From positions 496,001 through 560,000 of the forward strand of contig NZ_QYRN01000001.1 of NCBI RefSeq assembly GCF_003583935.1: a stretch of 64,000 bases of DNA, written 5' to 3'. This document shows, piece after piece, positions 2,322 through 58,415 of the stretch. Under the pieces are notes generated by a model. The model ran no database searches and was not told the origin of the DNA. It saw only the letters and a list, made by a program, of their open reading frames with translations. A program made the position numbers and the translations under genes. This stretch comes from Aureimonas flava (GTDB lineage: Bacteria; Pseudomonadota; Alphaproteobacteria; Rhizobiales; Rhizobiaceae). Each line of letters opens with the position of its first letter. Within the stretch, counting starts at the first letter, position 1.

Positions 2322-4538
<2,217 letters not shown>

Positions 4539-42660: not shown

Positions 42661-43913
42661 TTGGCGAGGTGATCCGCCATGCGGTCGATGTACCAGCGTA
42701 TGAACTTCTCCACGAGCATCTCGGTGTTGGGCGAGTAGGGGCCCGGCTCGTAGGCCGGGCTCATGGCGCCCTGCTGGCACATCTCGACCAGGGTCGCGTC
42801 CTGCGCGTTGGTGGCGGTCCAGACCTCGATCAGCCGGTCGACCTCGTAGTCGACGCCTTCGACGGCGTCCTTGCTGACCAGCCACTTGGTGCGCACCAGG
42901 GTGCGTCCCGCGTCCAGCGGCAGCACGGAGAAGGTGACGATGTGGTCGCCCAGGAAATGGTGCCAGGAGTTGGGCTGGGTCCAGAACGACAGGCCGCCCA
43001 GCTTCGCCGTGCTGAAGCGGCCCAGCGGAACGCGGCAGGCGGCGCGGGTGTCCATCGTGTGGCTCTCGCCGTCGCCGTCCAGCGGCAGCCGCTCCGTGCG
43101 AAAGCCGCTCACCCGCGTGTCGAGTTCGTCGATCTCGCGCGAGGGCAGGCCCATGCTCTCCCACTCGGCGTGGCTGGTCTGGCGCAGCGCGTCGTAGCGC
43201 TGGGCGTTCTCGAGGTCGAGCGCGTCCATCTCCTCCGGCGCGAAGCCGAAGCCGTAGGCGAAGAGGGGAACCGTCAGCTCGGGGTGGTTGGCCTCGCAGT
43301 GGTAGCATTCCCGGTTGTTCTCGAGCGTGAGCTTCCAGTTGCCCATCTCGATCAGGTCGCTCTGGTAGGCGATCTTGGTCCCGCGAACGTTGTGCGGAGC
43401 GATGTAGGGCGCCATGCGCGCGGCGAGCTGGTCGAAGTCCTCCGGCGGCTCGTCGGCGAGGCAGACGAAGAGCAGGCCCTCCAGCGAACGCAGGTGTACC
43501 GGCTTGAGCCCCTTGCAGGAGGCGTCGAACCCGACCCCCATGTGCGGCGCGTGCACCAGGCGCCCGTCCAGACCGTAGGTCCAGGAATGGTAGCGGCAGA
43601 CGAGGTTGCCGACCGTGGTCTTCTCCTCGTCGATCAGCCGGGCGCCGCGATGGCGGCAGACGTTGAAGAAGGCGCGAACCTCCTCGTCGTCGTCGCGCAC
43701 GAGCAGGATCGACGCCTTGCCGATGTCGACCGTCGCGACGTCTCCGGGCTCCGGCACGTCCGGCTCGACGCCCACGAAGATCCAGTGGCGATAGAAGATC
43801 GCCTCCATGTCCGCGTCGAAGACATCGGCCGAGGTGTAGAACGGCGCGTCGAGGCTGTGGCCCGGCTTGCGCCCGCGCACCAGCGATTCCAGGGAGTTCA
43901 GCGTGTTGAGCAT
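42657..43913 (-). CDS. gbcA: Glycine betaine demethylase, Rieske oxygenase subunit
   Basis: GbcA removes one methyl group from glycine betaine, giving dimethylglycine and formaldehyde. The 418-residue product has a Rieske centre (Cys86, His88, Cys106, His109) and a mononuclear iron site with His205 and His210 in RECYHCEANH, plus a later acidic ligand. The ATG at 43913 (MLNTLNSLE) is preferred to one 23 codons upstream that lacks family match. The 134 bases to the divergent GlxA-type gene contain the motif shared with the other betaine promoters. Confidence 0.93.
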   Translation of the reverse strand: MLNTLNSLESLVRGRKPGHSLDAPFYTSADVFDADMEAIFYRHWIFVGVEPDVPEPGDVATVDIGKASILLVRDDDEEVRAFFNVCRHRGARLIDEEKTTVGNLVCRYHSWTYGLDGRLVHAPHMGVGFDASCKGLKPVHLRSLEGLLFVCLADEPPEDFDQLAARMAPYIAPHNVRGTKIAYQSDLIEMGNWKLTLENNRECYHCEANHPELTVPLFAYGFGFAPEEMDALDLENAQRYDALRQTSHAEWESMGLPSREIDELDTRVSGFRTERLPLDGDGESHTMDTRAACRVPLGRFSTAKLGGLSFWTQPNSWHHFLGDHIVTFSVLPLDAGRTLVRTKWLVSKDAVEGVDYEVDRLIEVWTATNAQDATLVEMCQQGAMSPAYEPGPYSPNTEMLVEKFIRWYIDRMADHLAK

Positions 43914-44016
43914 GACCGATCGCCACTTTCGGCTGCGAGGCGCGGAGAGCCTCTTCGACTTGGAAGGATTCTCGGTTTCCACGGTCCTGTCTTGAAGCCG
44001 TACGACAGCTATTTTA

Positions 44017-44029
44017 GATTTTGCGACAA
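44017..44029 (-). promoter_or_regulatory. Betaine-motif copy facing gbcAB
   Basis: On the minus strand the core TTGTCGCAAAATC lies 104-116 bases upstream of the gbcA start. On the upstream side it overlaps a perfect dyad with 6-base arms and one central base (44023-44035). The core is shared, with small changes, with sites upstream of choX, soxB and purU, always oriented toward the catabolic genes. Confidence 0.55.
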
Positions 44030-44047
44030 TGTCGCGGTGCGGGTGTC

Positions 44048-45013
44048 GTGGTGAAGAACGGTTCGGGGTCTCAACTGTTCGGTTTCATGCTGACCGAGCG
44101 CTTCTCGATGATCGCATTCACCGCCGCGCTGGAGCCGCTGCGCCTGGCCAACCGGGCGGCGGGCGCCCCCCTTTACGACTGGCGGCTGTTCTCGGCGGAC
44201 GGTGCGGGCGCCGAGGCCTCCAACGGCGTGCGCGTGTGCGCCGACGGGGCGTTCCGCGATGCGCCGGGCCTCGACGCCGTGGTGGTCTGCGCCGGGGTGG
44301 ACGTGCATCTCGTGGACCACCACGATCTCCTGTCGGCCCTGCGCCGCCTGTGCAAGTCGGGCACGGCCGTCGGCGCGGTGTGCACCGGCGCCTACGTCCT
44401 CGCGCGCGCCGGCCTGCTCGACGGATACCGCTGCACCATCCACTGGGAGAATCGTCCCGGCCTGACCGCCGGCTTCCCGGACCTCGAAGTCGGCGACGAG
44501 CTGTTCGAGATCGACCGCGACCGGTTCACCTGCGCCGGCGGCGTCGCGGCGGCCGACATGATGCTGTCGCTGATCCGCAAGGACCACGGCGAGGCACTGG
44601 CGCGCGCCGTCGCCGAACAGCTCATCCACCAGCGGATCCGCGAGCCGGGGGAGCGGCAGCGGCCGGACCTCGGCAAGCGGCCCGGCACGGCGCATCCGAA
44701 GCTCCAGCGCGTCCTGGAGATGATGGAGGCCTCGATCGGGCGGCCGCTCAGCATCGAGGAGTTCGCCGGCAGCGTCGCCCTGTCGCCGCGCCAGTTGGAG
44801 CGCCTGTTCATCGAGCATCTCGGCGTCCCGCCCAACCGGCACTACGTCAACATCCGGCTGGAGCACGCCCGCCACCTGCTGCGCCAGACGCGCATGTCGG
44901 TGCTCGACGTGGCGATGACGAGCGGCTTCAACTCCGCGTCCTACTTCTCGCAGAGCTACCTCGAACGGTTCGGGCACAGCCCGAGGGCCGAGCGCAAGGC
45001 CACGCCGGCCTGA
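44048..45013 (+). CDS. GlxA-family transcriptional regulator (DJ-1/PfpI plus AraC domain), GbdR-like, first copy
   Basis: The 321-residue protein has an N-terminal DJ-1/PfpI-like ligand domain (residues 1 to about 180, with AVCTGAYVLARAGLLDG) and a C-terminal AraC-type helix-turn-helix pair (from about residue 215). This architecture is shared by GbdR, the activator of betaine catabolism in Pseudomonas, and by related carnitine and arginine regulators. It is divergent from gbcA, so it probably controls gbcAB. No ATG is available; GTG at 44048 or 44051 is the likely start. The GTG lies 12 bases past the dyad, so autoregulation is possible. It is convergent with the YbaK-like gene. Confidence 0.88.
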   Translation: MVKNGSGSQLFGFMLTERFSMIAFTAALEPLRLANRAAGAPLYDWRLFSADGAGAEASNGVRVCADGAFRDAPGLDAVVVCAGVDVHLVDHHDLLSALRRLCKSGTAVGAVCTGAYVLARAGLLDGYRCTIHWENRPGLTAGFPDLEVGDELFEIDRDRFTCAGGVAAADMMLSLIRKDHGEALARAVAEQLIHQRIREPGERQRPDLGKRPGTAHPKLQRVLEMMEASIGRPLSIEEFAGSVALSPRQLERLFIEHLGVPPNRHYVNIRLEHARHLLRQTRMSVLDVAMTSGFNSASYFSQSYLERFGHSPRAERKATPA

Positions 45014-45016
45014 GGG

Positions 45017-45523
45017 TTACGGCGCGTCGAGCGCGTCGAAATCGACGATGGCGGGCCGGTGCCCCGTCGCCTCCACCACGGCCAGCAGCTCGGTGCTCAC
45101 CAGCGACAGGGTGGCCGTGTTGGTCAATGGATGCACCGTGATGCGCGGCGCGGCCAGCATGTCCTTCGCCAAGACCAGCGTCACGGCGCCGGCCTTGTCG
45201 TTCACGAGCGCAAGCGGGCTCACCGAGCCCTGCACCACGTCGAGCGCCGCAAGGAGCGTCTCCGCGCTGGCGAAGGAGAATTTCTTGGCCCCCAGATGCG
45301 CGGCGAGCGCCTTGAGGTCGAGGCGGCGATCGCTGGGAACGCAGACCAGCCACAGCCCGCCCTTCGCGCCCTTGAGGAGGAGGTTTTTCGTGTGGACGCC
45401 CTCGAGCGTCTCCCAGTAGGGCAGGGCCTCCTCCACCGTATGGACCGGGGGATGCTCGATCGAGACGGGCTCGATGCCGAGGCGGGCGAATAGGGCGTCG
45501 AGTTCGGCACGTGCGTTCGGCAT
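45017..45523 (-). CDS. YbaK/ProX-type aminoacyl-tRNA deacylase
   Basis: The 168-residue protein matches the YbaK/ProX family, which hydrolyses mischarged aminoacyl-tRNAs such as Ala-tRNA(Pro). Signatures are PPVHTVEEALPYWETLEGVHTKNLLLKGAKGGLWLVCVP, then KFSFASAETLLAALDVVQGSVSPLALVND. The ATG at 45523 (MPNARAEL) is the conserved start; a longer frame adds an unlikely Pro-rich extension. It is convergent with the first GlxA-type regulator, with only 3 bases between the stops. It has no evident link to betaine metabolism. Confidence 0.88.
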   Translation of the reverse strand: MPNARAELDALFARLGIEPVSIEHPPVHTVEEALPYWETLEGVHTKNLLLKGAKGGLWLVCVPSDRRLDLKALAAHLGAKKFSFASAETLLAALDVVQGSVSPLALVNDKAGAVTLVLAKDMLAAPRITVHPLTNTATLSLVSTELLAVVEATGHRPAIVDFDALDAP

Positions 45524-45644
45524 GGGGTCCAGTCGGGGTTTCGGCGCGGGGGCTGGGGAACGGTACCGCGAGCGCGCCGGCGTCATCGCACCGATGCGCG
45601 CGCCGGTCCAGCGGCGGGGCCCGGTGCGCCGTGCGCCGCGCCCG

Positions 45645-46724
45645 TCAGGGCGAGACCATGGCCGAGACGACGTCCGGCAAGGTGAGGCAACCCAGCACCG
45701 TGCCGCGTCCGTCGGTGACCAGGATCATGCTCTTGCCGGACCCGAGCAGGGCGGCGACCGCCGTTTCCAGGAGCGTGCTGGCGGGCAGCTCGATCCCGTC
45801 CGCGTCCGGGGGAACGGCGCGCGCGCCCGTCAGGGCGCCGAGCTGGATCACCTTCCCGCGGTTCACATGGCGGACGAAATCCATGATGTAGTCGTCGGCG
45901 GGCGACAGCACGATCTCCTGACCCGTGCCCTGCTGCACCACCTCGCCGTCGCGCAGGATGGCGATGCGGTCGCCCAGGCGCAGCGCCTCGTCCAGGTCGT
46001 GGGTGATGAAGACGATGGTCTTGCGGATCTCCTTCTGGAGGTCGAGCAGGATCGACTGCATGTCCACGCGGATCAGCGGGTCGAGCGCCGAGAAGGCCTC
46101 GTCCATCAGTAGGATCGGCGCGTCGTTCACCAGCGCCCGGGCGAGGCCGACGCGCTGCTGCATGCCGCCGGAAAGCTGGTGCGGATAGTGGCCCTCGAAG
46201 CCCGCCAGCCCGACGCGGCCCAGCCAGTGCATCGCCGCGTCCACTTGACGGGCGCGGGGCACGCGCTGGAGCTCCAGCCCGTAGACCGCGTTGTCGAGCA
46301 CCGTGCGGTGGGGCAGGAGGCCGAACTGCTGGAACACCATCGCCGTCTTGTGTCGGCGGAACTCGCGCAGCTCCCGGGGCGACATCCTGCAGACGTCGAC
46401 GCCCTCCACCAGCACCTCGCCGACGGTCGGGTCGATCAGCCGGTTGATATGGCGGATCAGGGTCGACTTGCCGGACCCCGAAAGCCCCATGATGACCTGG
46501 ATGCAACCCGCCGGCATCCGGATGTTGATGTCGTTGAGCCCGAGGATGTGCTTGTGCACCTCCATCAGCTCCTGCTTGCCGACGCCCTGGCCGAGCAGCG
46601 GCACGATCTTGTCCGGGTTCTTGCCGAACACCTTGGACAGGTTGCGGATCTCGATGCCGTGCCGCGCGGGGGCCTGTTCGTCGCGGGTCGCCGGCGGCGG
46701 GAAGGAGGACGCGACGTCAAGCAT
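45645..46724 (-). CDS. choV: Glycine betaine/choline ABC transporter ATP-binding protein
   Basis: This is the ATPase of a ProV-type quaternary-amine importer. The 359-residue product has the ProV-specific N-terminal segment (IEIRNLSKVFG) and Walker A (GLSGSGKST). A Q-loop, the LSGGMQQRVGLARAL signature and Walker B ILLMDEAFSALDPL follow. A C-terminal region after the ATPase may be a CBS-like regulatory piece (VTDGRGTVLGCLTLPDVV). Its start overlaps the choW stop by 8 bases. Together with ChoW and ChoX it forms a complete importer. Confidence 0.93.
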   Translation of the reverse strand: MLDVASSFPPPATRDEQAPARHGIEIRNLSKVFGKNPDKIVPLLGQGVGKQELMEVHKHILGLNDINIRMPAGCIQVIMGLSGSGKSTLIRHINRLIDPTVGEVLVEGVDVCRMSPRELREFRRHKTAMVFQQFGLLPHRTVLDNAVYGLELQRVPRARQVDAAMHWLGRVGLAGFEGHYPHQLSGGMQQRVGLARALVNDAPILLMDEAFSALDPLIRVDMQSILLDLQKEIRKTIVFITHDLDEALRLGDRIAILRDGEVVQQGTGQEIVLSPADDYIMDFVRHVNRGKVIQLGALTGARAVPPDADGIELPASTLLETAVAALLGSGKSMILVTDGRGTVLGCLTLPDVVSAMVSP

Positions 46725-47604
46725 GTCCGTGCTCCCTGTGGCGTTGCAGGCGCTGCCCGAAGGCCTGGCTGATGCGATCGAAGATGATCGCGATCCCGAC
46801 GATCGCGAGACCGTTGAGGATGCCCATCGTGAAATACTGGTTGTTGATGGCGCGCAGCACCGGCTGGCCCAGGCCCTGCACGCCGATCATCGAGGCGATC
46901 ACCACCATGGCGAGCGCCATCATGATGGTCTGGTTGATCCCGGTCATGATGGTCGGCATGGCGAGCGGGAGCTGGACGTTGACGAGCTTCTGCCAAGCCG
47001 ACGAGCCGAAGGCGTCGGACGCTTCCAGCACCTCCTTGTTCACCAGCCGGATGCCGAGGTCCGTGAGGCGGATGATCGGCGGAATGGCGTAGATCACCAC
47101 GGCGATCAGCCCCGGCACGCGGCCGATGCCCATCAGCATCACCACGGGAATGAGATAGACGAAGCTCGGCAGCGTCTGCATCACGTCGAGGATCGGGCTG
47201 ACGATGCGGCGCAGGCGGATGGACCGCGCCATCCCGATGCCGATCGGGATGCCGACGACGAGCGAGATCAGCGTGCAGACGAGGATCATGGAGATCGTCC
47301 GCATCGTGTCGTCCCACATGTCGAACAGGCCGATCAGCAGGAGGGTGACGACGGAGCCGACGACGATCGGCCAGCGGCGGCTCGCGCCCCAGGCAAGGGC
47401 CGCCACAACGAGCACGATGACGGGCCAGGGCGTGTTCAGCATCACCCATTCCGCCCAGACCAGGAGGAGGCGCAGCGGCTCGAACAGGGCCTGGATCGGA
47501 TCGCCCCACGCGCGGGTGAAGGTGCGGAACGCGTCATCGACCGTCGTGCGGATCAGCCGAAGACGATTGTCGTCCATATGCGGAAACGTCCACAGCCAAT
47601 CCAT
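46717..47604 (-). CDS. choW: Glycine betaine/choline ABC transporter permease
   Basis: ChoW is the inner-membrane permease subunit. The 295-residue product has about seven hydrophobic segments and a cytoplasmic N-terminal extension. The BPD-type coupling motif is EASDAFGSSAWQKLVNVQLPLAMPTIMTGINQTIMMALAMVVIAS. A ProW-like order of segments is clear. It lies between choX and choV on the same strand. The 119-base gap after choX is the longest inside this operon. Confidence 0.93.
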   Translation of the reverse strand: MDWLWTFPHMDDNRLRLIRTTVDDAFRTFTRAWGDPIQALFEPLRLLLVWAEWVMLNTPWPVIVLVVAALAWGASRRWPIVVGSVVTLLLIGLFDMWDDTMRTISMILVCTLISLVVGIPIGIGMARSIRLRRIVSPILDVMQTLPSFVYLIPVVMLMGIGRVPGLIAVVIYAIPPIIRLTDLGIRLVNKEVLEASDAFGSSAWQKLVNVQLPLAMPTIMTGINQTIMMALAMVVIASMIGVQGLGQPVLRAINNQYFTMGILNGLAIVGIAIIFDRISQAFGQRLQRHREHGHA

Positions 47605-47723
47605 CCCGCGTACCCTCTCGATCGATGTCGTCGGCGCCTTGTCCTTCCCGCGCGTCCCGTGGCTCGGATGCTATGCCGAAACCGGCGGGCCGCGCGAGTG
47701 GGGTCCTGCGAAGTCGGCCCGTG

Positions 47724-48731
47724 CTAGAGAGCCGCCTCGATCTTGGTGGCCACCTCCGGGGAGACCCACTGGCTCCACACGTCCTTCTTGTTCTCGAGGA
47801 AATGGCGGGCGCCGTCGTCGCCGTTGGCCTGGTTGTCGGTCATCCAGGCGAGCAGCTCGTTGACCGTGGCGTTGGACCAGGAGCGGTTGGCGAGATAGGT
47901 CATCACCGGCTCGCCCGCCCGGTCCGCGAACTTCGTGGTCACGATGGTCTCGACCTTATCGGCCACCCACTCGTTGAGCTTCGGGTCGGGGCAGTCGGCG
48001 TTGGCGTTGCAGCGCTTCCATTCGGCGTCGTCGCGCGGCGCGTCGAAGCCGAGCTTCTTCATCGGGTAGCGGCCGAGGATCGCCGTGGGCGCCCAGTAGT
48101 AGCCGAGCCAGCCCTGCTTGTTCTCGTAGGCGCGGGCGATCGAGCCGTCGAGGCCGGCGGCCGAGCCGGTGTCGACCAGCGAGAATCCCTTGTCCGCGCC
48201 GTCATAGGCCTTGAAGAGCTGCGTGGTGACCACCGTGCCGCCCCAGCCCTGCGGCCCGTTGAACACGGCGCCCTTGCTCTTGTCCTCCGGGTCGGGGAAC
48301 AGCTCGGGATGCTTCAGCGCGTCGCCGATGGTCTGGATGTCGGGATGGGCCTCGGCGACGTACTGGGGAATGAACCAGCCCTGTTGCGCGCCGTCCGAAA
48401 GCGCGAGGCCGGTGGCGACCAGCGTCTTCTCCGAAAGGCCGCGATTGATGACCTCCGGCACGAGGTCCACCCAGCCTTCCGGCGCGATGTCCGGCTGGCC
48501 GCGCTCGGCCATCGAGGTCAGCGTCGGCACGGTGTCGCCGGAAATCACCGAGACGCTGCAGCCGTAGCCGTTCTCGAGGATGAACTTGTCGAGGCTGGCG
48601 AGGACTTCGGCGCTCTGCCAGTTCATCGCCGCGATGGTCACGTCGCTGCAGTCGCCGGCGGCGTAGGCCGCAAGGGAGCCGCAGGAGGACATGGCGATCG
48701 CTAGGCACGTCGATTTCACGAAACGATTCAT
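47724..48731 (-). CDS. choX: Glycine betaine/choline periplasmic binding protein
   Basis: ChoX captures choline or betaine outside the membrane. The 335-residue product has a signal peptide ending near LAAYAAG, followed by the OpuAC-type fold. Aromatic residues that could form the cation cage are visible: Trp38 in MNWQSAE, then GWVDLV, GWFIPQY and GYYWAPTA. The ATG at 48731 has GGGAGAAG about 6 bases upstream. Choline versus betaine preference cannot be told by eye; the catabolic genes around it point to betaine use in the end. Confidence 0.92.
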   Translation of the reverse strand: MNRFVKSTCLAIAMSSCGSLAAYAAGDCSDVTIAAMNWQSAEVLASLDKFILENGYGCSVSVISGDTVPTLTSMAERGQPDIAPEGWVDLVPEVINRGLSEKTLVATGLALSDGAQQGWFIPQYVAEAHPDIQTIGDALKHPELFPDPEDKSKGAVFNGPQGWGGTVVTTQLFKAYDGADKGFSLVDTGSAAGLDGSIARAYENKQGWLGYYWAPTAILGRYPMKKLGFDAPRDDAEWKRCNANADCPDPKLNEWVADKVETIVTTKFADRAGEPVMTYLANRSWSNATVNELLAWMTDNQANGDDGARHFLENKKDVWSQWVSPEVATKIEAAL

Positions 48732-48758
48732 CGTCTGCTTCTCCCGCGGCGCCGAAAC

Positions 48759-48793
48759 GAGGACCGCCCGGCGGCGCCGATTGCCGGGTCCTC
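48759..48793 (-). other. Bulged hairpin in the choX leader
   Basis: Two 11-base arms (5+6 bases) pair across a 3-base bulge and a 10-base loop, 28-62 bases upstream of the choX ATG. In the transcript it would be a stable 5' hairpin just above the ribosome site, and it does not cover that site. Confidence 0.4.
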
Positions 48794-48998
48794 CAGTTCG
48801 AGATCGGTCGGCCGGATCTCGGGGCGGGCCGGACGCCCCCGAGTTGGCGTCGAACCGTCATGCCGAAGCATCTCCTACCGCGCCCGGTGCGTACTCGTCG
48901 CGATCCGACCGGGCGGTTTTCCGACAAGCGAACCATCGTTTCATCGCCGGCCGACACGCCTCACCTTAGAAAGTCTATCGGCGCCACAACCGCAAACT

Positions 48999-49014
48999 AG
49001 GATCGATGCGACAA
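48999..49014 (-). promoter_or_regulatory. Betaine-motif copy facing choXWV
   Basis: On the minus strand the site reads TTGTCGCATCGATCCT, 268-283 bases upstream of the choX ATG. It shares TTGWCGCA and ATCCT with the soxB and purU sites. It overlaps a dyad with 7-base arms and 3-base spacer (49009-49025), comparable to the dyad at the gbc site. Confidence 0.5.
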
Positions 49015-49124
49015 CGCCGTTGTCGTTTCGCGACGCATCGGCTTCCTCTCTGACCATCACGGGGTCGGTGCCCAAACTCTGTTCAGGGGTGCGACACATG
49101 GGCTCGCAGCCCGCAACGCCGCGA

Positions 49125-49154
49125 GCGATGTCGGTGACGCCGCGCCGACATCGC
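49125..49154 (-). terminator. Hairpin after fdhA
   Basis: Two perfect 10-base arms (49125-49134 and 49145-49154) flank a 10-base loop, 30 bases after the fdhA stop. No T-run follows on the minus strand, so it may be a Rho-aided terminator or an mRNA 3'-end barrier for the six-gene sox-sda-fdh transcript. Confidence 0.5.
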
Positions 49155-49183
49155 CAACGCGGCGTCCCGTTCGATCCCGCCTC

Positions 49184-50368
49184 TCAGGCGGCCAGCGCGC
49201 CGTGCGGATCGAGCACGAACTTCACCGCCGCGCCCTGGTCGAAGGTCTCGTAGCCGCTGGCGGCGTCGTCGAGCGGGATGACGCGGGCGTTGACGATATC
49301 GGCGATCGGCAGGCGGTCGTGCAGGATGGCCTGCATGAGCTGGCGGTTGTATCTCAGCACCGGCGTCTGCCCGGTATGGAACGACTGCGCCTTGGCCCAG
49401 CCAAGCCCGAACCGGAGCGACAGGCTGCCGTGCCGCGCCGCGTCGTCCACTGCGCCGGGATCCTCGGTGACGTAGAGGCCGGGAATGCCGATCGAGCCCG
49501 CCGGCCGGGTGATCGCCATCATCTGGTTCAGGACGATCGCCGGCTGCTCTCCGCCCGAATGGCCGCGCGCCTCGAAGCCCACTGCGTCGATCGCGCAGTC
49601 CACCTCGTTCGTGCCCACCACCTCTGCGACCATCTCGCCGAGGTCGTCGTGCTGGGTCAGGTCGATCGGCGCGAAGCCCATCCTGGCCGCGTGGGCGAGG
49701 CGGTCCTTGTTGAAGTCGCCGATCATCACCACCGCCGCGCCGAGGATCCGGGCCGAGGCGGCGGCGGCCATGCCCACCGGGCCTGCCCCGGCGACGTAGA
49801 CCGTGGACCCGACGCCCACCCCGGCCTTCACCGCCCCGTGGAAGCCGGTGGGCAGGATGTCGGAGAGCATGGTCAGGTCGCGGATCTTGCTCATGGCCCG
49901 GTCGCGGTCGGGCAGCTTCAGGAGGTTGAAGTCGGCATAGGGCACGGTCACGTAGCGCGCCTGCCCGCCGATCCAGCCGCCCATGTCGACATAACCGTAG
50001 GCGCCGCCGGCGCGGGCGGGGTTCACGGTGAGGCAGACGCCCGTGTCCTGCGACTTGCAGCAGCGGCAACGGCCGCAGGCGACGTTGAACGGCACCGATA
50101 CGATATCGCCGATCTCCAGCATCTCTACGTCGACGCCCTTCTCGATCACCTCGCCGGTGATCTCGTGGCCGAGCACGAGCCCGGGCTCGGCCGTCGTGCG
50201 CCCACGCACCATGTGCTGGTCGGAACCGCAGATGTTGGTGGAGATGACCTTGAGGATGACGCCGTGCTCGATGCGGCGGCCGTCCGGCGCCGCAAGCTTG
50301 GCATCGTCTATGTCGCGCACCTCGACCTTGCCGGGCTCCAGGTACACCACGCCGCGATTGCTGCTCAT
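49184..50368 (-). CDS. fdhA: Glutathione-independent formaldehyde dehydrogenase
   Basis: FdhA oxidises free formaldehyde to formate with tightly bound NAD and belongs to the zinc alcohol-dehydrogenase superfamily. The 394-residue product shows the catalytic zinc motif (ICGSDQHMVRGRTTAEPGLVLGHE), the four-cysteine structural zinc lobe (ACGRCRCCKSQDTGVC) and the Rossmann motif VYVAGAGPVGMAAAAS. The ATG at 50368 has GGAGGAA upstream. As the last gene of the soxBDAG-sda-fdhA run it would detoxify the formaldehyde released by betaine and sarcosine demethylation. Confidence 0.95.
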   Translation of the reverse strand: MSSNRGVVYLEPGKVEVRDIDDAKLAAPDGRRIEHGVILKVISTNICGSDQHMVRGRTTAEPGLVLGHEITGEVIEKGVDVEMLEIGDIVSVPFNVACGRCRCCKSQDTGVCLTVNPARAGGAYGYVDMGGWIGGQARYVTVPYADFNLLKLPDRDRAMSKIRDLTMLSDILPTGFHGAVKAGVGVGSTVYVAGAGPVGMAAAASARILGAAVVMIGDFNKDRLAHAARMGFAPIDLTQHDDLGEMVAEVVGTNEVDCAIDAVGFEARGHSGGEQPAIVLNQMMAITRPAGSIGIPGLYVTEDPGAVDDAARHGSLSLRFGLGWAKAQSFHTGQTPVLRYNRQLMQAILHDRLPIADIVNARVIPLDDAASGYETFDQGAAVKFVLDPHGALAA

Positions 50369-50402
50369 TTCGATTTCCTCCCAGTGTTGCTCCGCCGGGC
50401 GC

Positions 50403-51791
50403 TCAGCACTCCGGCAGATTGACCGCCAGCCCTCCCAGACTGGTTTCCTTGAACTTCAGGCTCATCTCCTCGCCGGTCTGGCGCATCGCCTCGATGCAGT
50501 TGTCCAGCGGCATGAAGTGCGAGCCGTCGCCGCGCAGGGCGAGCGACGCGGCCGCGACGGCCTTGGTCGCCCCGATCCCGTTGCGCTCGATGCACGGCAC
50601 CTGGACCAGGCCCGCCACCGGGTCGCAGGTCATGCCGAGGTGATGCTCCAGCGCGATCTCGGCGGCGTTCTCCACCTGCTCGGGCGTGCCGCCGAACACC
50701 GCGCAGAGGCCCGCCGCCGCCATCGCGGCGGCCGAGCCGACCTCGCCCTGGCAGCCCGCCTCGGCGCCCGAGATCGAGGCGTTGTGCTTGATCAGGCCGC
50801 CGATCGCGGCGGCGGTCAGCAGGAAGTCGGACACCTTGGCCGGGTCCGCGCCGTGGCAGTTGTCGAGGTAGTAGCGCAGGACGGCCGGCACGACGCCGGC
50901 CGCCCCGTTGGTCGGCGAGGTGACCACCTGTCCGCCCGCCGCGTTCTCCTCGTTGACGGCCATCGCATAGACGCTGAGCCAGTCCGAAGCGGCATGCGGC
51001 TGGCTGGCGTTGCGCATCCTCTCGGCCAGGAGCTGCTGGTGGATCCGCCGGGCCCGGCGCTTGACCCGCAGGCCTCCCGGCAGCTCGCCCTCCAGCGCCA
51101 GCCCCCGGTCGATGCATCGGCTCATCACCGACCAGATGTGCCGCAGCCCGGCTTCCACGTCCTCCGCGTCGCGCAGCCGCGCCTCGTTCTCGCGTTTCAT
51201 CTGCGCGATCGAAAGCCCGCTGCCCCGCGCCATGCGCAGCATGTCGGCGGCGTTGCGAAACGGGAACGGCCACGCGACATCGCCCTCGGCGGGGTCGGCT
51301 GCCGGCGCCTCGCGCTCGGCCGCCGTCACCACGAAGCCGCCGCCGATCGAATAGAAGGTCTGCGCCACCAGCTCGGCGCCCTCGGCGTCGCGGGCCGCGA
51401 GCACCAGCCCGTTGGCATGGCCGGGCAGGGGCGGGCCGAAGTCGAACACCACGTCGGTCGCCGGATCGAAGGCGAGGGCGGGAAGGCCCTCGGGTCGCAG
51501 CACGCGCTCGGTGCGCAGCGCCTCCAACTGGCGCTCCGCCATCGCCATGTCGATCGTGTCGGGCTGCCAGCCGAGAAGGCCGAGGGCCACCGCCCGATCG
51601 GTGCCGTGGCCCTTGCCGGTGAAGGCGAGCGAGCCGTGCAGCGTCGCCCGGACGCCGGCGGCCTGCTGCTGGGCGTGGGCCGACTGCCGGAGCTGGGCGA
51701 GGAACCGCGCCGCCGCCGTCATCGGCCCCATCGTGTGCGACGAGGAGGGCCCGATACCGATCTTGAAGACGTCGAAGACGCTGAGGAACAC
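50403..51791 (-). CDS. sdaA: L-serine ammonia-lyase, iron-sulfur type, single chain
   Basis: This enzyme deaminates L-serine to pyruvate and ammonia using a [4Fe-4S] cluster. The 462-residue product has the N-terminal beta region ([16 protein letters not shown]) and the C-terminal catalytic region with [17 protein letters not shown] and [17 protein letters not shown], whose cysteines bind the cluster. The start is a GTG at 51791. In this operon it consumes the serine expected from glycine via serine hydroxymethyltransferase, which closes the route to pyruvate. Confidence 0.95.
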
Positions 51792-51875
51792 GGGTTTCCG
51801 CCTCGGCTCAGGGAAGGGCGCCCGGACCGTCCGGCTTCGCGGCGTTCGGCATGGCGACCTCCCTCCTTGCCGGCC

Positions 51876-52430
51876 TCAGAGGCCCAGTTCGAACTCGCGG
51901 CGGATGGCGGCCAGAAGGTGCCAGACGTGATCGGCGAACGAATGCCAGACCTCAATACGGAACCGGTCCTCCGCCTCGCGCAGGAGGATGATCTGCACGC
52001 GGTCGATGATGGTCCGGCGCGCGCCGCCGACCGGCATCGCGGCGACGTCGGCGGCGATGCTCGACTGGAGGGCCTTGGCGGCCTCCGGTCCCTCCACCGC
52101 GATGCCCACTTCCCGGTGGCCGATGTCGACCAGGCTGTGGACCGTGATGGCGTAGAGGTCGGCGAAGGCCGCCACGATCGCGTCCCCGTCGCCGGTCGGC
52201 GCGATCAGATACCATTCGTCCGGCCCGATGCAGGCGGCGATCCGTCCGGAGGCCGCGGCGAACGTCCCGATCGCCGAGGGCAGGGGCGCGCCCCACGCCG
52301 CGGCGGCCGCCGCGAGGTCAGCCGGCGCGACGCGCAGGTTGAAGCGGGCGCAGTTCTCGATCGGGCGGATCGAGACGGGGCCGGCGCCGGACAGGTTGCG
52401 TCCGACAAGGGGATGACGTTCCTGAAACAT
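51876..52430 (-). CDS. soxG: Sarcosine oxidase, gamma subunit
   Basis: SoxG is the small structural subunit of heterotetrameric sarcosine oxidase, which demethylates sarcosine to glycine. The 184-residue product shows the GcvT-like fragment typical of the family: RFNLRVAPADL, then GPDEWYLIAP and the closing VEVWHSFADHVWHLLAAIRREFELG. It starts 12 bases after soxA. An 84-base gap to sdaA follows, still on the same strand. Confidence 0.92.
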   Translation of the reverse strand: MFQERHPLVGRNLSGAGPVSIRPIENCARFNLRVAPADLAAAAAAWGAPLPSAIGTFAAASGRIAACIGPDEWYLIAPTGDGDAIVAAFADLYAITVHSLVDIGHREVGIAVEGPEAAKALQSSIAADVAAMPVGGARRTIIDRVQIILLREAEDRFRIEVWHSFADHVWHLLAAIRREFELGL

Positions 52431-52442
52431 CCTCGCGTCTCC

Positions 52443-55436
52443 TCAGGCGCTCAGTCGCTTGTTGTCCGGGTCGAAGAAGACCGTCCCCGTCACCTGCGCG
52501 CGCAGCGTGCGACCCGGCATCGGAATGTGGACGGTCTCGCCCATCCGCCCCTTGCCGCCCTCGACTACCGCGAGCGCGATCGAGCGGCCGAGCGCGACGC
52601 TCCAGTAGGAGGAGGTCACGTGGCCGACCATGCGCATGGGGACGGGCTGGTCGGGGTCGAGGACGATTTGCGCGCCCTCCTCGAGGATCGTCGCCGGATC
52701 CTCGGTCAGGAGGCCGACGAGCTGCTTGCGATCGGGCTTCACCATGTCCGGCCGGCTCAGCGAACGCTTGCCCACGAAGTCGGGCTTGGCCTTGCCGATG
52801 GCCCAGCCGAGGCCGGCGTCGTCGGGCGTCAGCGTGCCGTCCGTGTCCTGGCCGACGATGATGTAGCCCTTCTCGGCGCGCAGCACGTGCATCGTCTCGG
52901 TGCCGTAGGGCGTGATGCCGAGCGGCTGTCCCGCCTCCACCAGCTTCTCCCAGACGGCGCGGCCGAACCGGGCCGGCACGTTGACCTCGTAGCCGCGCTC
53001 GCCGGTGAAGCTCATGCGGAACAGGCGGGCGGGAACGCCGCAGATCCGCCCCTCGGCCACCGACATGTGGGGGAACCATTCCTCGGACAGATCGATGCCT
53101 TCGATCAGCGGCTCCAGAAGGGTGCGCGATGCGGGTCCGTTGACGGCGATCACCGCCCACTGCTCCGTGGTGGAGGTCAGCCAGACCTTGAGTTCGGGGA
53201 ACTCGGTCTGGAGGTAGTCCTCCATCATGTTCAGGACACGGGCCGCGCCGCCGGTCGTCGTGGTGACGTGGAAGCGGTCGCGGCTCAGGCGTCCGATCAC
53301 CCCGTCGTCGCGGATGAAGCCGTCCTCGCCCAGCAGCACGCCGTAGCGCGAGCGGCCGGGCTCCAGCTTGCTCCAGGGGTTAGTGTACATCAGGTTCAGG
53401 AACTCGGCGGCGTCGGGGCCGACGATCTCGATCTTGCCCAGCGTCGAGGCGTCGAAGATGCCGACCGCCTCGCGCGTCGCCCGGCATTCGCGGGCCACCG
53501 CGGCGTGCATGTCCTCGCCCGCCTTCGGGAAGTACCAGGCCCGGCGCCACAGAGCGACCGGCTCGAACACCGCGCCGTGCTCCTCGGCCCAGCCGTCGAT
53601 CGAGGTCCTGCGCGTGACGTCGAACAGGCGCCCGCGGTTGTAGCCGCAGAACGCCCCGAACGTGGTCGGCGTATAGGGCGGCCGGAAGGTGGTGAGGCCG
53701 ACGGCGGGGGCGGGACGGCCGACCGCGTCGGCGGCGATGGCGAGGCCGTTGATGTTGGAGATCTTGCCCTGGTCGGTCGCCATGCCGTTGGTGGTGTAGC
53801 GCTTGATGTGCTCGATGGACTTGAAGCCCTCGCGAACCGCAAGCCGGATGTCCTTGGCGGTGACGTCGTTCTGGAAATCCACGAAGGCCTTGGCCTTCAA
53901 CGCGTTCCCGTCGGTCGGGAGCTCGCGGCTGGTGACGCCGGTGAGACGGCGCTCGCCGTCCACGCGATAGGTGCCGGCGCGCGCGGCGAAGCCGGCGTCG
54001 GCCGCCGCAGCCGCGCCAGCCGCCGCGCCCGCTCCGAGGGCATTGGCGAGGCCGAACTCGCCGTTGCCGGCGCCCGCGCAGCGGCACGCCTCGCGGTAGG
54101 CGGAGGGCAGGAACATCTGACCCTCCTCGCGCCAGGCGAGCTTGCCCTGCGTGTGCGAGAAGAGATGGAGGCTCGGCGTCCACCCGCCGCTCATCAGGAG
54201 CGCGTCGCAGGCGATGGTGCGCGCCTGCGCGGCACCGCCGTTCGCGGGCAGGACGCGGACCGAGGAGACGCGCAGGCGCCCCTCGGTCCCGGTCGCCGTC
54301 CAGCCCTGCAGAACCTCGATCCCGGCCGCCTCGGCCTCCGAGCGCAGCGCGGCGTCGACGCTGGATCGCACGTCCACGATCGCCGAGACCCTCACGCCGG
54401 CTCGCGCGAGGTCGAGCGCGGCGAGCCACGCGCTGTCGTGCGCGGTGACCACCACGACCTCGTCGCCGACCCGGACGCCGTAGCGGTTGAGATAGGTGCG
54501 GGCAGCGCCCGCCAGCATCACGCCCGGACGGTCGTTGCCGTCGAACACGAGCGGTCGCTCGATCGAACCCTGCGCCAGAACGACCTGCGTGGCGCGCACC
54601 TTCCACATGCGCTCGCGCGGAGCGCCTTCGGGCGCCGAGGGCAGGTGATCCGTCAGGCGCTGGCATAGGCCGACGAAGTTCTGGTGGTAGTAGCCGATCG
54701 CGGTGGTGCGGGGCAGGAGCGTGACGTTGGGCATCCCGGCCAGCTCGCCGAGCGCGGTGCGCAGCCAGTCCCAGCCGCTACCGCCGTCGATGCCCGCGTC
54801 GGTTTCCGAAAGGAGGGAGCCGCCGAACTCGGCCTGCTCGTCGGCCAGCATCACCGTCGCGCCGGAGCGCCCCGCTTCCAGCGCGGCGGCAAGGCCTGCG
54901 GGTCCCGAGCCGACCACCAGCACGTCGCAATGCGCGAAACGGCTGGAATACACGTCCGGGTCGGGCTCGACGGGCGACTTGCCGAGCCCCGCGGCGCCCC
55001 GGATCACCGGTTCGTAGACCTTGTTCCAGAAGGCCTTCGGCCACATGAAGGTCTTGTAGTAGAAACCGGCCGAGAACAGCACCGAGAGCGTGTCGTTGAT
55101 CGCCCCGACGTCCCGCTCCAGCGACGGCCAGTGGTTCTGGCTCCGGGTCTTCAGGCCCTCCGATATCTCCAGCACGGTGGCACGCGTGTTGGGCTCGGTC
55201 CGCGCCCCGCCGCGATCGACGCCGAGCAGCGCGTTGGGCTCCTCCGACCCGGCCGAAAGGATGCCGCGCGGCCGGTGGTACTTGAAGGAACGGCCGACCA
55301 GGTGCACGCCGTTGGCGAGAAGGGCGGAGGCGACCGTATCGCCCTGGAAGCCCCGGTAGGTCCTGCCGTTGAAGGAGAAGGCGACCGGGCGCCCGTAGTC
55401 GACCCGGCCCCGGTTGGCGACGCGGAAGGCGCTCAT
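52443..55436 (-). CDS. soxA: Sarcosine oxidase, alpha subunit
   Basis: SoxA binds NAD and tetrahydrofolate and converts the one-carbon unit released from sarcosine to 5,10-methylene-THF. The 997-residue product has an N-terminal thiol/2Fe-2S-like fold (SFNGRTYRGFQGDTVASALLANG), a Rossmann motif (VLVVGSGPAGLAAALEAGRSG near residue 165) and a C-terminal GcvT-type folate domain (about residues 600-990). Its ATG overlaps the soxD stop (ATGA). Length and order match the family fully. Confidence 0.96.
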   Translation of the reverse strand: MSAFRVANRGRVDYGRPVAFSFNGRTYRGFQGDTVASALLANGVHLVGRSFKYHRPRGILSAGSEEPNALLGVDRGGARTEPNTRATVLEISEGLKTRSQNHWPSLERDVGAINDTLSVLFSAGFYYKTFMWPKAFWNKVYEPVIRGAAGLGKSPVEPDPDVYSSRFAHCDVLVVGSGPAGLAAALEAGRSGATVMLADEQAEFGGSLLSETDAGIDGGSGWDWLRTALGELAGMPNVTLLPRTTAIGYYHQNFVGLCQRLTDHLPSAPEGAPRERMWKVRATQVVLAQGSIERPLVFDGNDRPGVMLAGAARTYLNRYGVRVGDEVVVVTAHDSAWLAALDLARAGVRVSAIVDVRSSVDAALRSEAEAAGIEVLQGWTATGTEGRLRVSSVRVLPANGGAAQARTIACDALLMSGGWTPSLHLFSHTQGKLAWREEGQMFLPSAYREACRCAGAGNGEFGLANALGAGAAAGAAAAADAGFAARAGTYRVDGERRLTGVTSRELPTDGNALKAKAFVDFQNDVTAKDIRLAVREGFKSIEHIKRYTTNGMATDQGKISNINGLAIAADAVGRPAPAVGLTTFRPPYTPTTFGAFCGYNRGRLFDVTRRTSIDGWAEEHGAVFEPVALWRRAWYFPKAGEDMHAAVARECRATREAVGIFDASTLGKIEIVGPDAAEFLNLMYTNPWSKLEPGRSRYGVLLGEDGFIRDDGVIGRLSRDRFHVTTTTGGAARVLNMMEDYLQTEFPELKVWLTSTTEQWAVIAVNGPASRTLLEPLIEGIDLSEEWFPHMSVAEGRICGVPARLFRMSFTGERGYEVNVPARFGRAVWEKLVEAGQPLGITPYGTETMHVLRAEKGYIIVGQDTDGTLTPDDAGLGWAIGKAKPDFVGKRSLSRPDMVKPDRKQLVGLLTEDPATILEEGAQIVLDPDQPVPMRMVGHVTSSYWSVALGRSIALAVVEGGKGRMGETVHIPMPGRTLRAQVTGTVFFDPDNKRLSA

Positions 55437-55735
55437 GCGCGTACGTCCTCGGCGGTCGCCTCGTCCGGCCCCGCGCTTCCGGCCTCGTAGGTCGCGGCGA
55501 ACTTGTCGGTCACCGTGTCGCGGATCGCGTTGAAGAACCGGCCGCAACCGTGGACATGGCGCCACCGCTCGCGGTGCCGCCCGCGCGGGTTGTCGCGGAT
55601 GTAGAGAAAGTCGCGCCACGCGTCGTCGGACAGGGCGGACGGGTTCTCCGGGCGGGCGATATGGGCCTGCCCGCCATAGGCGAACTCGACCTCGGGACGC
55701 TCGCAGGCGCAGTAGGGGCAGTGGATGAGCAGCAT
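55433..55735 (-). CDS. soxD: Sarcosine oxidase, delta subunit
   Basis: SoxD is the 100-residue zinc-binding subunit of heterotetrameric sarcosine oxidase. Three cysteines (CPYCACERP) and a later His/Cys pair (VHGCGRFF) form the expected zinc site. The family core DFLYIRDNPRGRHRERWRHVHGCGRFFN is intact. It starts 11 bases after soxB and overlaps soxA. Confidence 0.96.
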   Translation of the reverse strand: MLLIHCPYCACERPEVEFAYGGQAHIARPENPSALSDDAWRDFLYIRDNPRGRHRERWRHVHGCGRFFNAIRDTVTDKFAATYEAGSAGPDEATAEDVRA

Positions 55736-55746
55736 CGGACGATCCG

Positions 55747-57000
55747 TCAGTGCGCGACGGCGGCCGCGGCCGCCTCGTCGATGAGCCGACCGGTCCTGAA
55801 CCGGTCCAGCGTGAAGGGTGCGTTGATGCGGTGCGGGGCGTCGTTGGCGATCGTGTGCGCGAAGACGTTGGCCGAGCCGGGCGTCGCCTTGAAGCCGCCG
55901 GTTCCCCAGCCGCAGTTGACGTAGAGGCCGGGCACCGGCGTCCTGCCGATGATCGGCGACCTGTCGGGCGTCACGTCGACGATGCCGCCCCATTTGCGCA
56001 GCATGCGCATGCGCGTGAAGATCGGGAAGATCTCGCAGATCGCCGCCACGGTATGCTCGATCAGCGGCAGGCCGCCGCGCTGGCTGTAGGAGACGTACTG
56101 GTCCGTGCCGGAGCCGATCACCAGCTCGCCCTTGTCGGACTGCGAGATGTAGGCGTGCACCGTGTTCGACATGACGACGCAGGGGAACACCGGCTTCACC
56201 GGCTCGGACACCAGCGCCTGCAGCGGGTAGCTCTCCAGCGGGAGGCGCACGCCCGCCGATTCCATCACAACCGACGTGTTGCCGGCGGCCGAGACGCCGA
56301 CCTTGCGGGCTCGGATGAAGCCGCGCGCCGTCTCGACGCCGCTGACATTGCCGGCCGCGTCGCGGCGGATGGCGGTGACCGGGCAGTTCTGGATGATGTC
56401 GACGCCCCGCGCCGCCGCGCCGCGCGCATAGCCCCAGGCCACCGCGTCGTGCCGCGCGACGCCGCCGCGGCGCTGCAGCGCGGCCCCCATCACCGGGTAG
56501 CGGGCGTTGGGGGAGATATCGAGCGGCGGGCAGAACGCCTTGGCCTCCTCGGGCGTCATCCATTCGTTGTCGATGCCGTTGAGGCGGTTGGAATGGACGT
56601 GGCGGCGGAAGCTCTGCACGTCGTGGACGTTGTGCGCGAGCATCATCACGCCGCGCTGCGAGAACATGACGTTGTAGTTCAGCTCCTGGGACAGGTTCTC
56701 CCAGAGCTTCATCGCGTGCTCGTAGAGCATCGCGCTTTCGTCGTAGAGGTAGTTCGAGCGGATGATCGTGGTGTTGCGGCCCGTGTTGCCGCCGCCGAGC
56801 CAGCCCTTCTCGATCACCGCCACGTTGGTGATGCCGTGCTCCTTGGCCAAGTAGTAGGCGGCGCCCAGCCCGTGCCCGCCGGCGCCGACGATGATGACGT
56901 CGTATTCCGCCTTGGGCTCCGCGTCGGGCCACTGCGGCTCCCAGTTCTTGTGTCCCGTCAGCGCGTTGGCCACGAGGGACGGAAAGGAGAAACGGGTCAT
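55747..57000 (-). CDS. soxB: Sarcosine oxidase, beta subunit
   Basis: SoxB is the flavoprotein subunit that oxidises sarcosine. The 417-residue product shows the dinucleotide-binding motif [22 protein letters not shown], the family's [22 protein letters not shown] where FMN is attached via a nearby histidine, and [14 protein letters not shown] near the C-terminus. The ATG at 57000 is the first of the six-gene run soxB-soxD-soxA-soxG-sdaA-fdhA. The betaine motif lies 54-73 bases upstream. Confidence 0.96.
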
Positions 57001-57053
57001 CGCGCACCTCGAACGAGCATTGCGGCCGCATCATCGCGGCAACGTTCACCAGG

Positions 57054-57073
57054 GAACAGGATATTTGCGTCAA
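57054..57073 (-). promoter_or_regulatory. Betaine-motif copy facing soxB
   Basis: On the minus strand the site reads TTGACGCAAATATCCTGTTC, 54-73 bases upstream of the soxB ATG. It matches the purU-facing site at 19 of 20 bases. Its position fits an activator site next to or overlapping the promoter. An imperfect TGCGAC copy lies a few bases upstream and could be the partner half-site. Confidence 0.65.
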
Positions 57074-57120
57074 TCGGGTCGCACTTTAGGCGCAGGCGGG
57101 GCCCGGCGGGCGCCAAGCCG

Positions 57121-58197
57121 TCAGGCGCTCAGGCGGCTTCCGCCTCGCGCCTCGGGCAGGCTCGCGGCCTGCTGCGCCTGCCTGCGGATCTCCTGCGGCG
57201 TGCGGTCGAAGCGCTGCCGAAACATGCGGCTGAGATGCGAGGAGTCGCAGAAGCCGCACTCCACGGCCACGGCGGCCACGAGCTTGTCGGTGGTCTCGAT
57301 CAGGTGCCGCGCGAAGGTAAGCCGGATCTGGAGGAAGGCGGCCTGCGGCGAGGCGCCGAGGGCGGACCGGAAGTGGCGTTCGAGCTGGCGCTTGCTATGC
57401 CCCATCCGCCGGGCGAGCTCGGCGACCGAGAGAGGCGTGTCGATGTTCTGCTGCATCAGCAGGAGCGCGCGCATCACCATCGGATCGCGGGTGGAGATGT
57501 CCATCGACACGCCCGGCTGCGGCTTCTCCGGCCGCATGGCGTCGTCGATGATCATGATGTGCAGGCTCTTGCTGGCCTGCGCGCGGCCGACGTGCCGCTC
57601 CACCAGATACGCCGCGAGATGGGCCGAACTCGCGCCGCCGGAACAGGTCAGCCGATCACCGTCGTCGATGAAGATCTGGTCGGACACCGGGTCGAGCCCG
57701 TCGAACTGCTCCAGGAAGTCGACGTGGTGGAACCAGCTCACGCAGCAGCGGTACCCCTTCATCAGCCCGGCCTTGTGCAGCAGGAAGCCGCCCGTGCAGA
57801 TGCCGATCAGGGGAACGCCGGCCTCGGCCGCGCGACGCAGGTAGGCGGCATAGGCCGTCTCCAGTCCCGACAGCTCCTCCATCACCCCGCCGACCACCAC
57901 GATGTAGTCGAACTTCGTCGGATCGCCGAGCCGCTCGTTCGGCTGGATCGAAACGCCGCTGCTGGAGGGGATGGCGCACATCGTGTCCGACAGGACGCTC
58001 CAGCCGCACAGGATGGGGCGGCTCCGGTCGCCCTCGTCGGCGGCGAGGCGCAGCACGTCCACGAAGTTGGCAAAGGCGCAGAGCGTGAAGCGCCGGGCGA
58101 GGATGAAGCCGACCGAAAGCCGCGCGCCGCCCTTGCGGGGCTTGTAGGCGGACGACGACAACGCACCGGCCCGACCGTCTGCACCCCTGGCGTCCAT
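57121..58197 (-). CDS. GlxA-family transcriptional regulator (DJ-1/PfpI plus AraC domain), GbdR-like, second copy
   Basis: The 358-residue protein has a DJ-1/PfpI-like domain (about residues 25-215, with LIGICTGGFLLHKAGLMKGY) and a C-terminal AraC-type DNA-binding domain (from about residue 255, VAELARRMGHSKRQLERHFRSALG, then CGFCDSSHLSRMFRQRF). Its length is close to GbdR of Pseudomonas. It lies between soxB and the divergent purU, with betaine-motif copies on both sides. It is the best candidate for the activator of the whole island. The ATG at 58197 has AGGAG about 6 bases upstream. Confidence 0.9.
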   Translation of the reverse strand: MDARGADGRAGALSSSAYKPRKGGARLSVGFILARRFTLCAFANFVDVLRLAADEGDRSRPILCGWSVLSDTMCAIPSSSGVSIQPNERLGDPTKFDYIVVVGGVMEELSGLETAYAAYLRRAAEAGVPLIGICTGGFLLHKAGLMKGYRCCVSWFHHVDFLEQFDGLDPVSDQIFIDDGDRLTCSGGASSAHLAAYLVERHVGRAQASKSLHIMIIDDAMRPEKPQPGVSMDISTRDPMVMRALLLMQQNIDTPLSVAELARRMGHSKRQLERHFRSALGASPQAAFLQIRLTFARHLIETTDKLVAAVAVECGFCDSSHLSRMFRQRFDRTPQEIRRQAQQAASLPEARGGSRLSA

Positions 58198-58249
58198 CGG
58201 CTCTCCTCGCGGCGAACTCGTCGTCCGTTGTCGTACTGCTAATCCGGTT

Positions 58250-58269
58250 TTGACGCAAACATCCTGTTC
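58250..58269 (+). promoter_or_regulatory. Betaine-motif copy facing purU
   Basis: On the plus strand the site reads TTGACGCAAACATCCTGTTC, 147-166 bases upstream of the purU start and in the gap to the divergent regulator. A second half-site-like TTGTCGTA begins 22 bases earlier, at 58228, on the same strand and about two helical turns away, as direct-repeat AraC-type sites often are. Confidence 0.65.
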
Positions 58270-58415
58270 CGGGGGGAGGGCGTGTCGCAATGCTTCATCC
58301 CGTGAGCGAAATCCGTCGCTCGGATCGCGACCAACGGCGGCGGCGAGTCGCAGCGTGGGCGCCATCCACGGCGGGTGCCTCGAGTGCCTTGCCCGCTTCC
58401 CGTCGAGAGATGCCG

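Follow-up and report, generated by a model that had tools for sequence, protein, structure and literature searches.

What controls the genes for glycine betaine breakdown in Aureimonas flava, and do they answer to one regulator or to two? The question is raised by a 64,000-nucleotide stretch of the genome (contig NZ_QYRN01000001.1, positions 496,001 to 560,000; hereafter the window), in which 41.5–62 kb hold gbcAB, the divergent regulator gene gbdR1, choXWV, a soxB–soxA–sda–fdhA run, a second regulator gene, gbdR2, and purU together with a gene for a dimethylglycine-dehydrogenase-like protein (dmgdh). A sequence-only reading had picked out by eye a shared core, TTGWCGCA, upstream of gbcA, choX, soxB and purU, and had proposed it as the operator of one regulator serving a single betaine regulon. 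Inspection of the window found all four sites where they had been placed. They are not chance occurrences, and by their sequence they look like conserved operators of a known regulator type. The four sites are probably the operators of two regulators of the GATR subfamily sharing the half-site core TGWCGY, one set being of a GbdR2 type and the other of a gbc type. The sites and the −10-like boxes downstream of them are:

58229–58270, + strand: candidate purU–dmgdh operator, GbdR2 type; distal half TGTCGTACTGCTAATC at 58229–58244 and proximal half TGACGCAAACATCCTGTTC at 58251–58269, a 22-bp repeat.
58288–58294, + strand: −10-like box CAATGCT of the predicted purU promoter, at offsets 37–43 from the proximal half-site in the Aureimonas sequences.
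57054–57072, − strand: candidate soxB operator, GbdR2-type proximal half TGACGCAAATATCCTGTTC; top conserved block of its gap, 5/5.
57030–57035, − strand: −10-like box GATGAT of the predicted soxB promoter, at an offset close to that of the purU box; relatives have CAATGAT or CAATGGT.
48997–49035, − strand: choXWV site; CGTCGC at 49035–49030 and TGTCGCATCGATCCTAG at 49013–48997, a 22-bp repeat; conserved in 7/7 Aureimonas.
48972–48977, − strand: −10-like box TAGACT of the predicted cho promoter, offsets 36–41; TA..CT in 7/7 Aureimonas.
43992–44028, − strand: candidate gbcA operator of the other type; TGTCGCAAAATCTAAA at 44028–44013 and TGTCGTACGGCTTCAA at 44007–43992, a 21-bp repeat.
43965–43970, − strand: −10-like box AATCCT of the predicted gbcA promoter, offsets 37–42 from the proximal half; the block AACCGAGAATCCTTCC scores 0.89.

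The gaps holding the sites were aligned with those of six congeners that carry the whole cluster or part of it (7 sequences for gbc, 7 for cho, 5 for sox and 6 for purU, window included). Conservation in orthologous promoters, which the sequence-only reading had named as a test, was found at each site: 16-column site blocks scored 0.89 (gbc), 0.82 (cho), 0.96 (sox) and 0.91 (purU), against gap means of 0.54, 0.26, 0.44 and 0.44. The site block ranked first in the sox gap and tied for first with another block in both the gbc and the cho gaps; in the purU gap, first rank went to the distal half-site (0.92), and the earlier-noted site came second. The alignments gave TGTCGC-N15-TGTCGY at gbcA (21-bp period), CGTCGC-N16-YGTCGC at choX and TGTCGT-N16-TGACGC at purU (both 22-bp). 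Each core looks like one half of an AraC-type site, with tandem TGWCGY half-sites in three of the four units. The tandem TGTCGC-like halves with a period of about 21 bp that characterize GATR-type operators were thus seen at gbc (21 bp) and at purU and cho (22 bp), and not at sox. The sites as first described are half-sites, the second half having been overlooked at gbc (44007), cho (49035) and purU (58229).

Beyond these congeners, 150-bp windows upstream of gbcA or soxB were collected from 22 further relatives. TGTCGC was present in 30/42 of them (gbcA, 13/22; soxB, 17/20), the next best of 90 anagrams in 13/42; in background windows TGTCGC occurred in 7.9% (1,293/16,348). Genome G007 has neither sox nor purU genes at this place, and the purU-type promoter is intact upstream of etfBA–dmgdh; in G018 the promoter stands upstream of dmgdh with no purU between. 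These arrangements indicate that the promoter tracks the demethylation function, not one gene.

A two-half matrix (W46) was built from 63 sites outside Aureimonas (loci L122–L197 without L190), located by a motif from expectation maximization (EM) whose training set had included the window and four other Aureimonas sequences. Over 127,910 window positions, purU, sox and cho took ranks 1–3 and gbc ranked 490th; with the proximal half alone (127,954 positions), sox was 1st, purU 2nd, cho 4th and gbc 436th. Reciprocally, a matrix from 12 of the 22 relatives' gbcA windows, a 21-bp pair being required, placed gbc 1st of 127,910 and none of the other sites higher than 595th. On the basis of these reciprocal tests two operator types were distinguished, sox and purU (perhaps with cho) versus gbc. 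A half-site matrix made only from the relatives' TGTCGC sites was tried and rejected; it ranked cho 1st, gbc 9th, purU 251st and sox 341st, a result that prompted the division of the sites into types. The single motif, single regulator and single regulon first envisaged were accordingly not supported, since gbc separates from purU, sox and cho in the reciprocal matrices.

The strongest rival retains that simpler arrangement: one regulator, GbdR1 or GbdR2, would bind all four sites as a single regulon, and the flank differences would reflect variation in affinity. The TGWCGY cores common to all four sites and their nearly equal spacing to the −10-like box fit this account, as does the failure of a gbc-type profile (R2, below) to link gbc to a separate family. 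We nonetheless consider it unlikely, given the reciprocal ranking that sets gbc apart, the repeat period of 21 bp at gbc versus 22 bp at purU and cho, and the TGTCGC sites that relatives without a GbdR2 of at least 63% identity still carry upstream of gbcA and soxB. Under the preferred reading, with two regulators, the assignment of sox and purU to the GbdR2 type is firm as a sequence match and that of cho is suggestive; gbc is likely to be a separate type, although this is less firm.

The GbdR2 type was also recovered de novo. gbdR2 loci were taken as the best 80 of 461 relatives (61–89% identity), from genera that we take, from the record titles, to belong to Rhizobiales, Rhodobacterales, Rhodospirillales and Sphingomonadales. 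Among these 80 loci, 66 had one of four genes divergent within 700 bp of gbdR2 (purU in 7, etfB in 24, dmgdh in 15, soxB in 20); of the remainder, 9 had a gbdR1-like gene and 5 had none of these. De novo EM was run on 69 non-redundant upstream gaps of 81 (12 near-duplicates dropped; 5/69 from Aureimonas). The 20-mer noted at soxB and purU, the proximal half of this operator, was recovered as TGACGCAAacaTtCTgTtc with a posterior above 0.9 in 65/69 gaps, and a TGTCG-type half lay 22 bp upstream of it in most. The log-likelihood gain was 765.6 for the gaps versus 85–94 in four dinucleotide shuffles; the next 350 bp, used as a control region, gave 483.4, and because this region holds conserved gene starts the shuffles were taken as the null.

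Several of these loci have features of their own. In Ensifer, Sinorhizobium and Aquamicrobium (L181, L182, L183, L185–L189 and L191, at about position 3900), gbdR2 and a gbdR1-like gene (39–44% identical) are divergently oriented, and in the 8 of these 9 loci kept for EM a gbdR2-type motif lies between the two, aimed at the gbdR1-like gene; to judge from this layout, one regulator may control the other at such gaps. In L124, L125, L127 and L152, a second GbdR2-like gene (51–62% identical) follows gbdR2 directly on the opposite strand, before soxB. L194 comes from a record titled Mycobacterium sp. KBS0706, yet its gbdR2 and sox genes are Alphaproteobacteria-like, and the record is perhaps misnamed.

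A 46-position profile (R1) was then built from 42 sites, none from Aureimonas. They represent 42/75 of the non-Aureimonas gbdR2 loci, the others scoring below 15 or being more than 87% identical to a kept site. In the search of the window's own 4.09-Mb genome (150 of 544 first-look candidates scored), R1 returned two places at E ≤ 10, purU (34.9 bits, E 5.5e-8; the operator is conserved in 6/6 Aureimonas) and sox (18.9 bits, E 0.0064). No other site appeared at E ≤ 10 in this genome-wide scan, in which glyA was neither located nor looked at on its own; matches were significant at purU and sox, and not, in the window, at cho (6.7 bits) or gbc (3.9 bits). Across 121 genomes, own included, R1 matched at E < 1e-3 in 9/9 genomes with a GbdR2 of at least 63% identity and in 0/112 others (Fisher, 9e-14), both thresholds having been chosen after the tables were seen. 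The nine comprise seven of the window's Aureimonas clade, G050 and G065. When 289 genomes sampled evenly across the class were searched, the window's own among them, the single other genome with an R1 match at E ≤ 0.01 was also the single other one with a GbdR2 of at least 63% identity (69%), and four genomes with 58–59% GbdR2-like proteins had no R1 match at that E value.

A number of observations weigh against this assignment. Three of the 112 other genomes gave weak R1 matches (E 0.013–0.022), and searches over 40 genomes used stricter filters, with 51 or 21 candidates scored per genome. R1 was trained on gbdR2-adjacent gaps, so nearness to gbdR2 in the training genomes is partly built in, and G050, G065 and G386 may be among those genomes. 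Among the relatives, the genomes that carry the soxB and gbcA sites have just a 47–52% GbdR2-like gene, for which reason these sites are not tied to either regulator. At sox, no conserved partner half-site 22 bp upstream was found in the five-sequence gap alignment; the relocated soxB of G007 has only a divergent, TGGCGC-type 21-bp repeat, of TGGCGCAA (10.2 bits in R1). The cho site ranked 5th in the window with R1 (E 0.74) and is missing from the whole-genome list at E ≤ 10. The gbc type is the less well recovered. Profile R2, from 10 distinct sites among the 12 gbcA windows, gave strong matches in 13 genomes, namely the 10 used in training, a further 2 whose sites are identical and a single new genome (G017), and did not find gbc in the window's own Aureimonas clade; it had no match at E ≤ 0.1 in G000 and none at E ≤ 5 in L043–L048. 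On the gbc site itself R2 scored 4.7 bits, 6th of 10 in the window and not significant, so the tie of gbc to the relatives' gbcA sites is drawn from matrix rank, the 21-bp repeat and position.

The −10-like boxes bear on both the direction of the sites and their nature. In 56 non-redundant gbdR2 gaps, the box occupied offsets 37–42 from the proximal half-site, with A in 90% at offset 38 and T in 64% at offset 42. The four Aureimonas promoters all had a closely similar geometry (offsets 36–38), and so did those gbcA sites of the relatives that contain a 21-bp pair. A −35 hexamer placed 17 bp upstream of this box would coincide with TGTTC, the second box of the half-site. Such geometry would be expected of an AraC-type activator contacting the −35 region, and the direction toward the catabolic gene would follow from it. 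Half-sites, a box at nearly fixed distance and cross-species conservation together support the proposal of GbdR-type operators oriented to catabolic genes. The first reading set this direction against a divergent regulator, which only gbcA (gbdR1) and purU (gbdR2) in fact face; the gene upstream of soxB on its own strand is gbdR2, and fdhA stands likewise upstream of choX on the same strand. TGTCGCAATG, downstream of sox and purU, was considered as a third half-site and rejected, the class-wide alignment identifying its CAAT portion with the −10-like box; the TGTCG preceding CAAT stands out in Aureimonas, not class-wide.

That TTGACG is simply the sigma-70 −35 hexamer of a conserved housekeeping promoter is very unlikely. 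TTGACG is −35-like, and conserved −10-like boxes do lie downstream, but the box sits at offset 36–37 from TGACGC, not 17–18 bp past TTGACG. In addition, gbc and cho carry TTGTCG, three of the four units have a second half-site at a distance of 21–22 bp, and presence follows GbdR2 (9/9 versus 0/112 genomes).

Counting the core in the window is uninformative, as TTGWCGCA occurs 4 times versus 2.97 expected (both strands) and 34/100 shuffles reach 4. Its placement is another matter. With the gene starts used here, all 4 copies fall inside the four gaps, which make up 921/64,000 bases (1.4%), and of 5,040 eight-letter anagrams, each with one A replaced by A/T, TTGWCGCA alone had a copy, on whichever strand, in every one of the four gaps. 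The 20-mer reported as shared by soxB and purU, TTGACGCAAAYATCCTGTTC, was upheld: with up to 3 mismatches allowed, the window held just those two copies (0.00 expected); its first 17 bases occur without mismatch at two places in the 4.09-Mb genome, soxB and purU, the next best having 2 mismatches. A chance resemblance selected by eye, for which the near-expected 8-mer count speaks, is hardly credible against the confinement of all 4 copies to 1.4% of the window, the lack of any other among the 5,040 patterns common to all four gaps, and the conservation in relatives and de novo recovery in other genera, and for sox and purU the conservation seen rules it out. The pattern TGWCGYN{15,16}TGWCGY was rejected as too loose (42 genome matches versus 15 for a reversed control). 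A weak half-site match (8.1 bits) at 51349–51367 on the − strand, inside sda, is probably chance.

The genes of the cluster are:

44051–45013, + strand: gbdR1, GATR-type AraC regulator, divergent from gbcA; 344.7 bits to NF052371, residues 16–328 of 330.
57121–58197, − strand: gbdR2, GATR-type AraC regulator, divergent from purU and upstream of soxB; 187 bits to NF052371.
42657–43913, − strand: gbcA, glycine betaine monooxygenase oxygenase subunit; 434 bits to NF058607 and 383 bits to NF058606, both below the curated cut-offs.
About 41530–42570: gbcB, after gbcA.
45645–48731, − strand: choXWV-like choline/betaine ATP-binding cassette transporter, from family searches.
49184–57000, − strand: soxB, soxA, sda and fdhA (sarcosine oxidase, serine dehydratase, formaldehyde dehydrogenase), from family searches; soxD and soxG are presumed to lie within the run.
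58410–59273, + strand: purU, from PurU models.
59380–61941, + strand: dimethylglycine-dehydrogenase-like protein, with DAO, FAO_M, GCV_T and GCV_T_C.

The presence of two GbdR-like regulators, noted from the start, was confirmed, in that GbdR1 and GbdR2 both match NF052371. Neither reaches the 480-bit cut-off of this GbdR equivalog family, nor does any other match in the genome. GbdR2 has the GATase-1/DJ-1-like N-terminal domain and AraC helix-turn-helix of the GATR subfamily (PF01965, DJ-1/PfpI, and PF12833, HTH_18), and GbdR1 is placed in the subfamily by its NF052371 match and by 32% identity to GbdR2 over 320 positions. A third GbdR-like regulator of this genome, G000:C19:206034–206990 (L114), scores 319.8 bits to NF052371 and was set aside; a LysR gene and eutB, for ethanolamine ammonia lyase, are close by. 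A second gbcA-like stretch, G002:C107:4642–5886, is 50% identical, has two internal TAG codons and is perhaps a pseudogene. purU probably starts near 58410 instead of 58290, because the PurU models begin at residues 44–49 of the open reading frame and the ATG at 58290 falls within the −10-like box.

A leader of about 230 nt is predicted for choX, and within it, just ahead of the gene, is an inverted repeat, GGCGCCG...CGGCGCC (48748–48778, − strand), of which GGCGCCGCC and GCGCC show no variation across 7 Aureimonas sequences; it could form a leader hairpin. No Rfam match was found at this repeat (E ≤ 0.5, 40–64 kb), and the same search returned a tRNA gene at 40267–40339 (+ strand) and one sub-threshold match at the same place.

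By their sequence, the sites follow the direct-repeat style of the GATR regulators ArgR, CdhR, GbdR and SouR. The P. aeruginosa CdhR site is described as a direct repeat of GGTCGC half-sites with a 15-bp spacer (PMC5806209), GbdR half-sites are said to resemble GGTCGC direct repeats (PMC12093977, PMC5806209), and GbdR and SouR sites are said to be very similar to those of CdhR (PMC5806209). The Pseudomonas ArgR ARG box is given as a tandem TGTCGCN6GNAA with 5-bp separation, hence a 21-bp period, and a weaker second copy (PMC10963909). The gbc site shares this 21-bp period, whereas the period of the GbdR2 operators, away from the arginine pathway of ArgR, is 22 bp and their second box differs. 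CdhR, of the carnitine operon, is described as class I (PMC5806209), unlike the class II activation that the geometry here suggests. As in the P. aeruginosa GbdR regulon, a GATR-type regulator would serve gbcAB and the dimethylglycine and sarcosine genes. Unlike that system as described, there are two GbdR-like regulators in a single cluster here with distinguishable operators, and the GbdR2 type has a 22-bp repeat with a TYCTGT second box. SouR is likewise a second GATR-like activator beside GbdR (PMC12093977); GbdR2, for its part, is encoded next to sox, dmgdh, etf and purU genes. The inducers reported for Pseudomonas are betaine and dimethylglycine for GbdR and sarcosine for SouR (PMC12093977).

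From these comparisons we infer binding by regulator dimers, activation, promoter function, the inducers, and the pairing of gbc with GbdR1 and of cho with GbdR2, in the following scheme. The first type, TGTCGTA-N4-TAAT... 22 bp ...TGACGCAAAYATYCTGT, would be the putative GbdR2 operator and drive the purU–dmgdh and soxB...soxA–sda–fdhA demethylation operons, possibly also choXWV. The second, TGTCGC-N15-YGTCGY with a 21-bp period upstream of gbcAB, would most likely be read by GbdR1. A dimer on the tandem half-sites, the proximal one beside or over the −35 region, would recruit RNA polymerase to the −10 box about 36–37 bp downstream (class II activation). If the Pseudomonas pattern carries over, the inducers would be betaine or dimethylglycine for GbdR1, and dimethylglycine or sarcosine for GbdR2.

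The system is of a known kind, since tandem TGTCGC-type and GGTCGC half-sites are already known for ArgR and CdhR. No description of an alphaproteobacterial GbdR2 operator was found in the open-access literature searched, and within that literature the operator, with its period of 22 bp, and the division of control between two regulators appear to be new. It is possible, and close to an even call, that GbdR2 is an undescribed, widespread alphaproteobacterial regulator of dimethylglycine and sarcosine demethylation with its own 22-bp tandem operator, that the betaine pathway is split between two GATR regulators that share a half-site core and so can cross-talk, and that in Ensifer and Sinorhizobium, where the operator points at the gbdR1-like gene, a cascade connects the regulators. 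A motif found by eye would thereby become a specific, testable regulator–operator pair, which would explain why one six-base core stands upstream of all the betaine genes despite two regulators, and the 42-site profile lets demethylation regulons be sought in other genomes.

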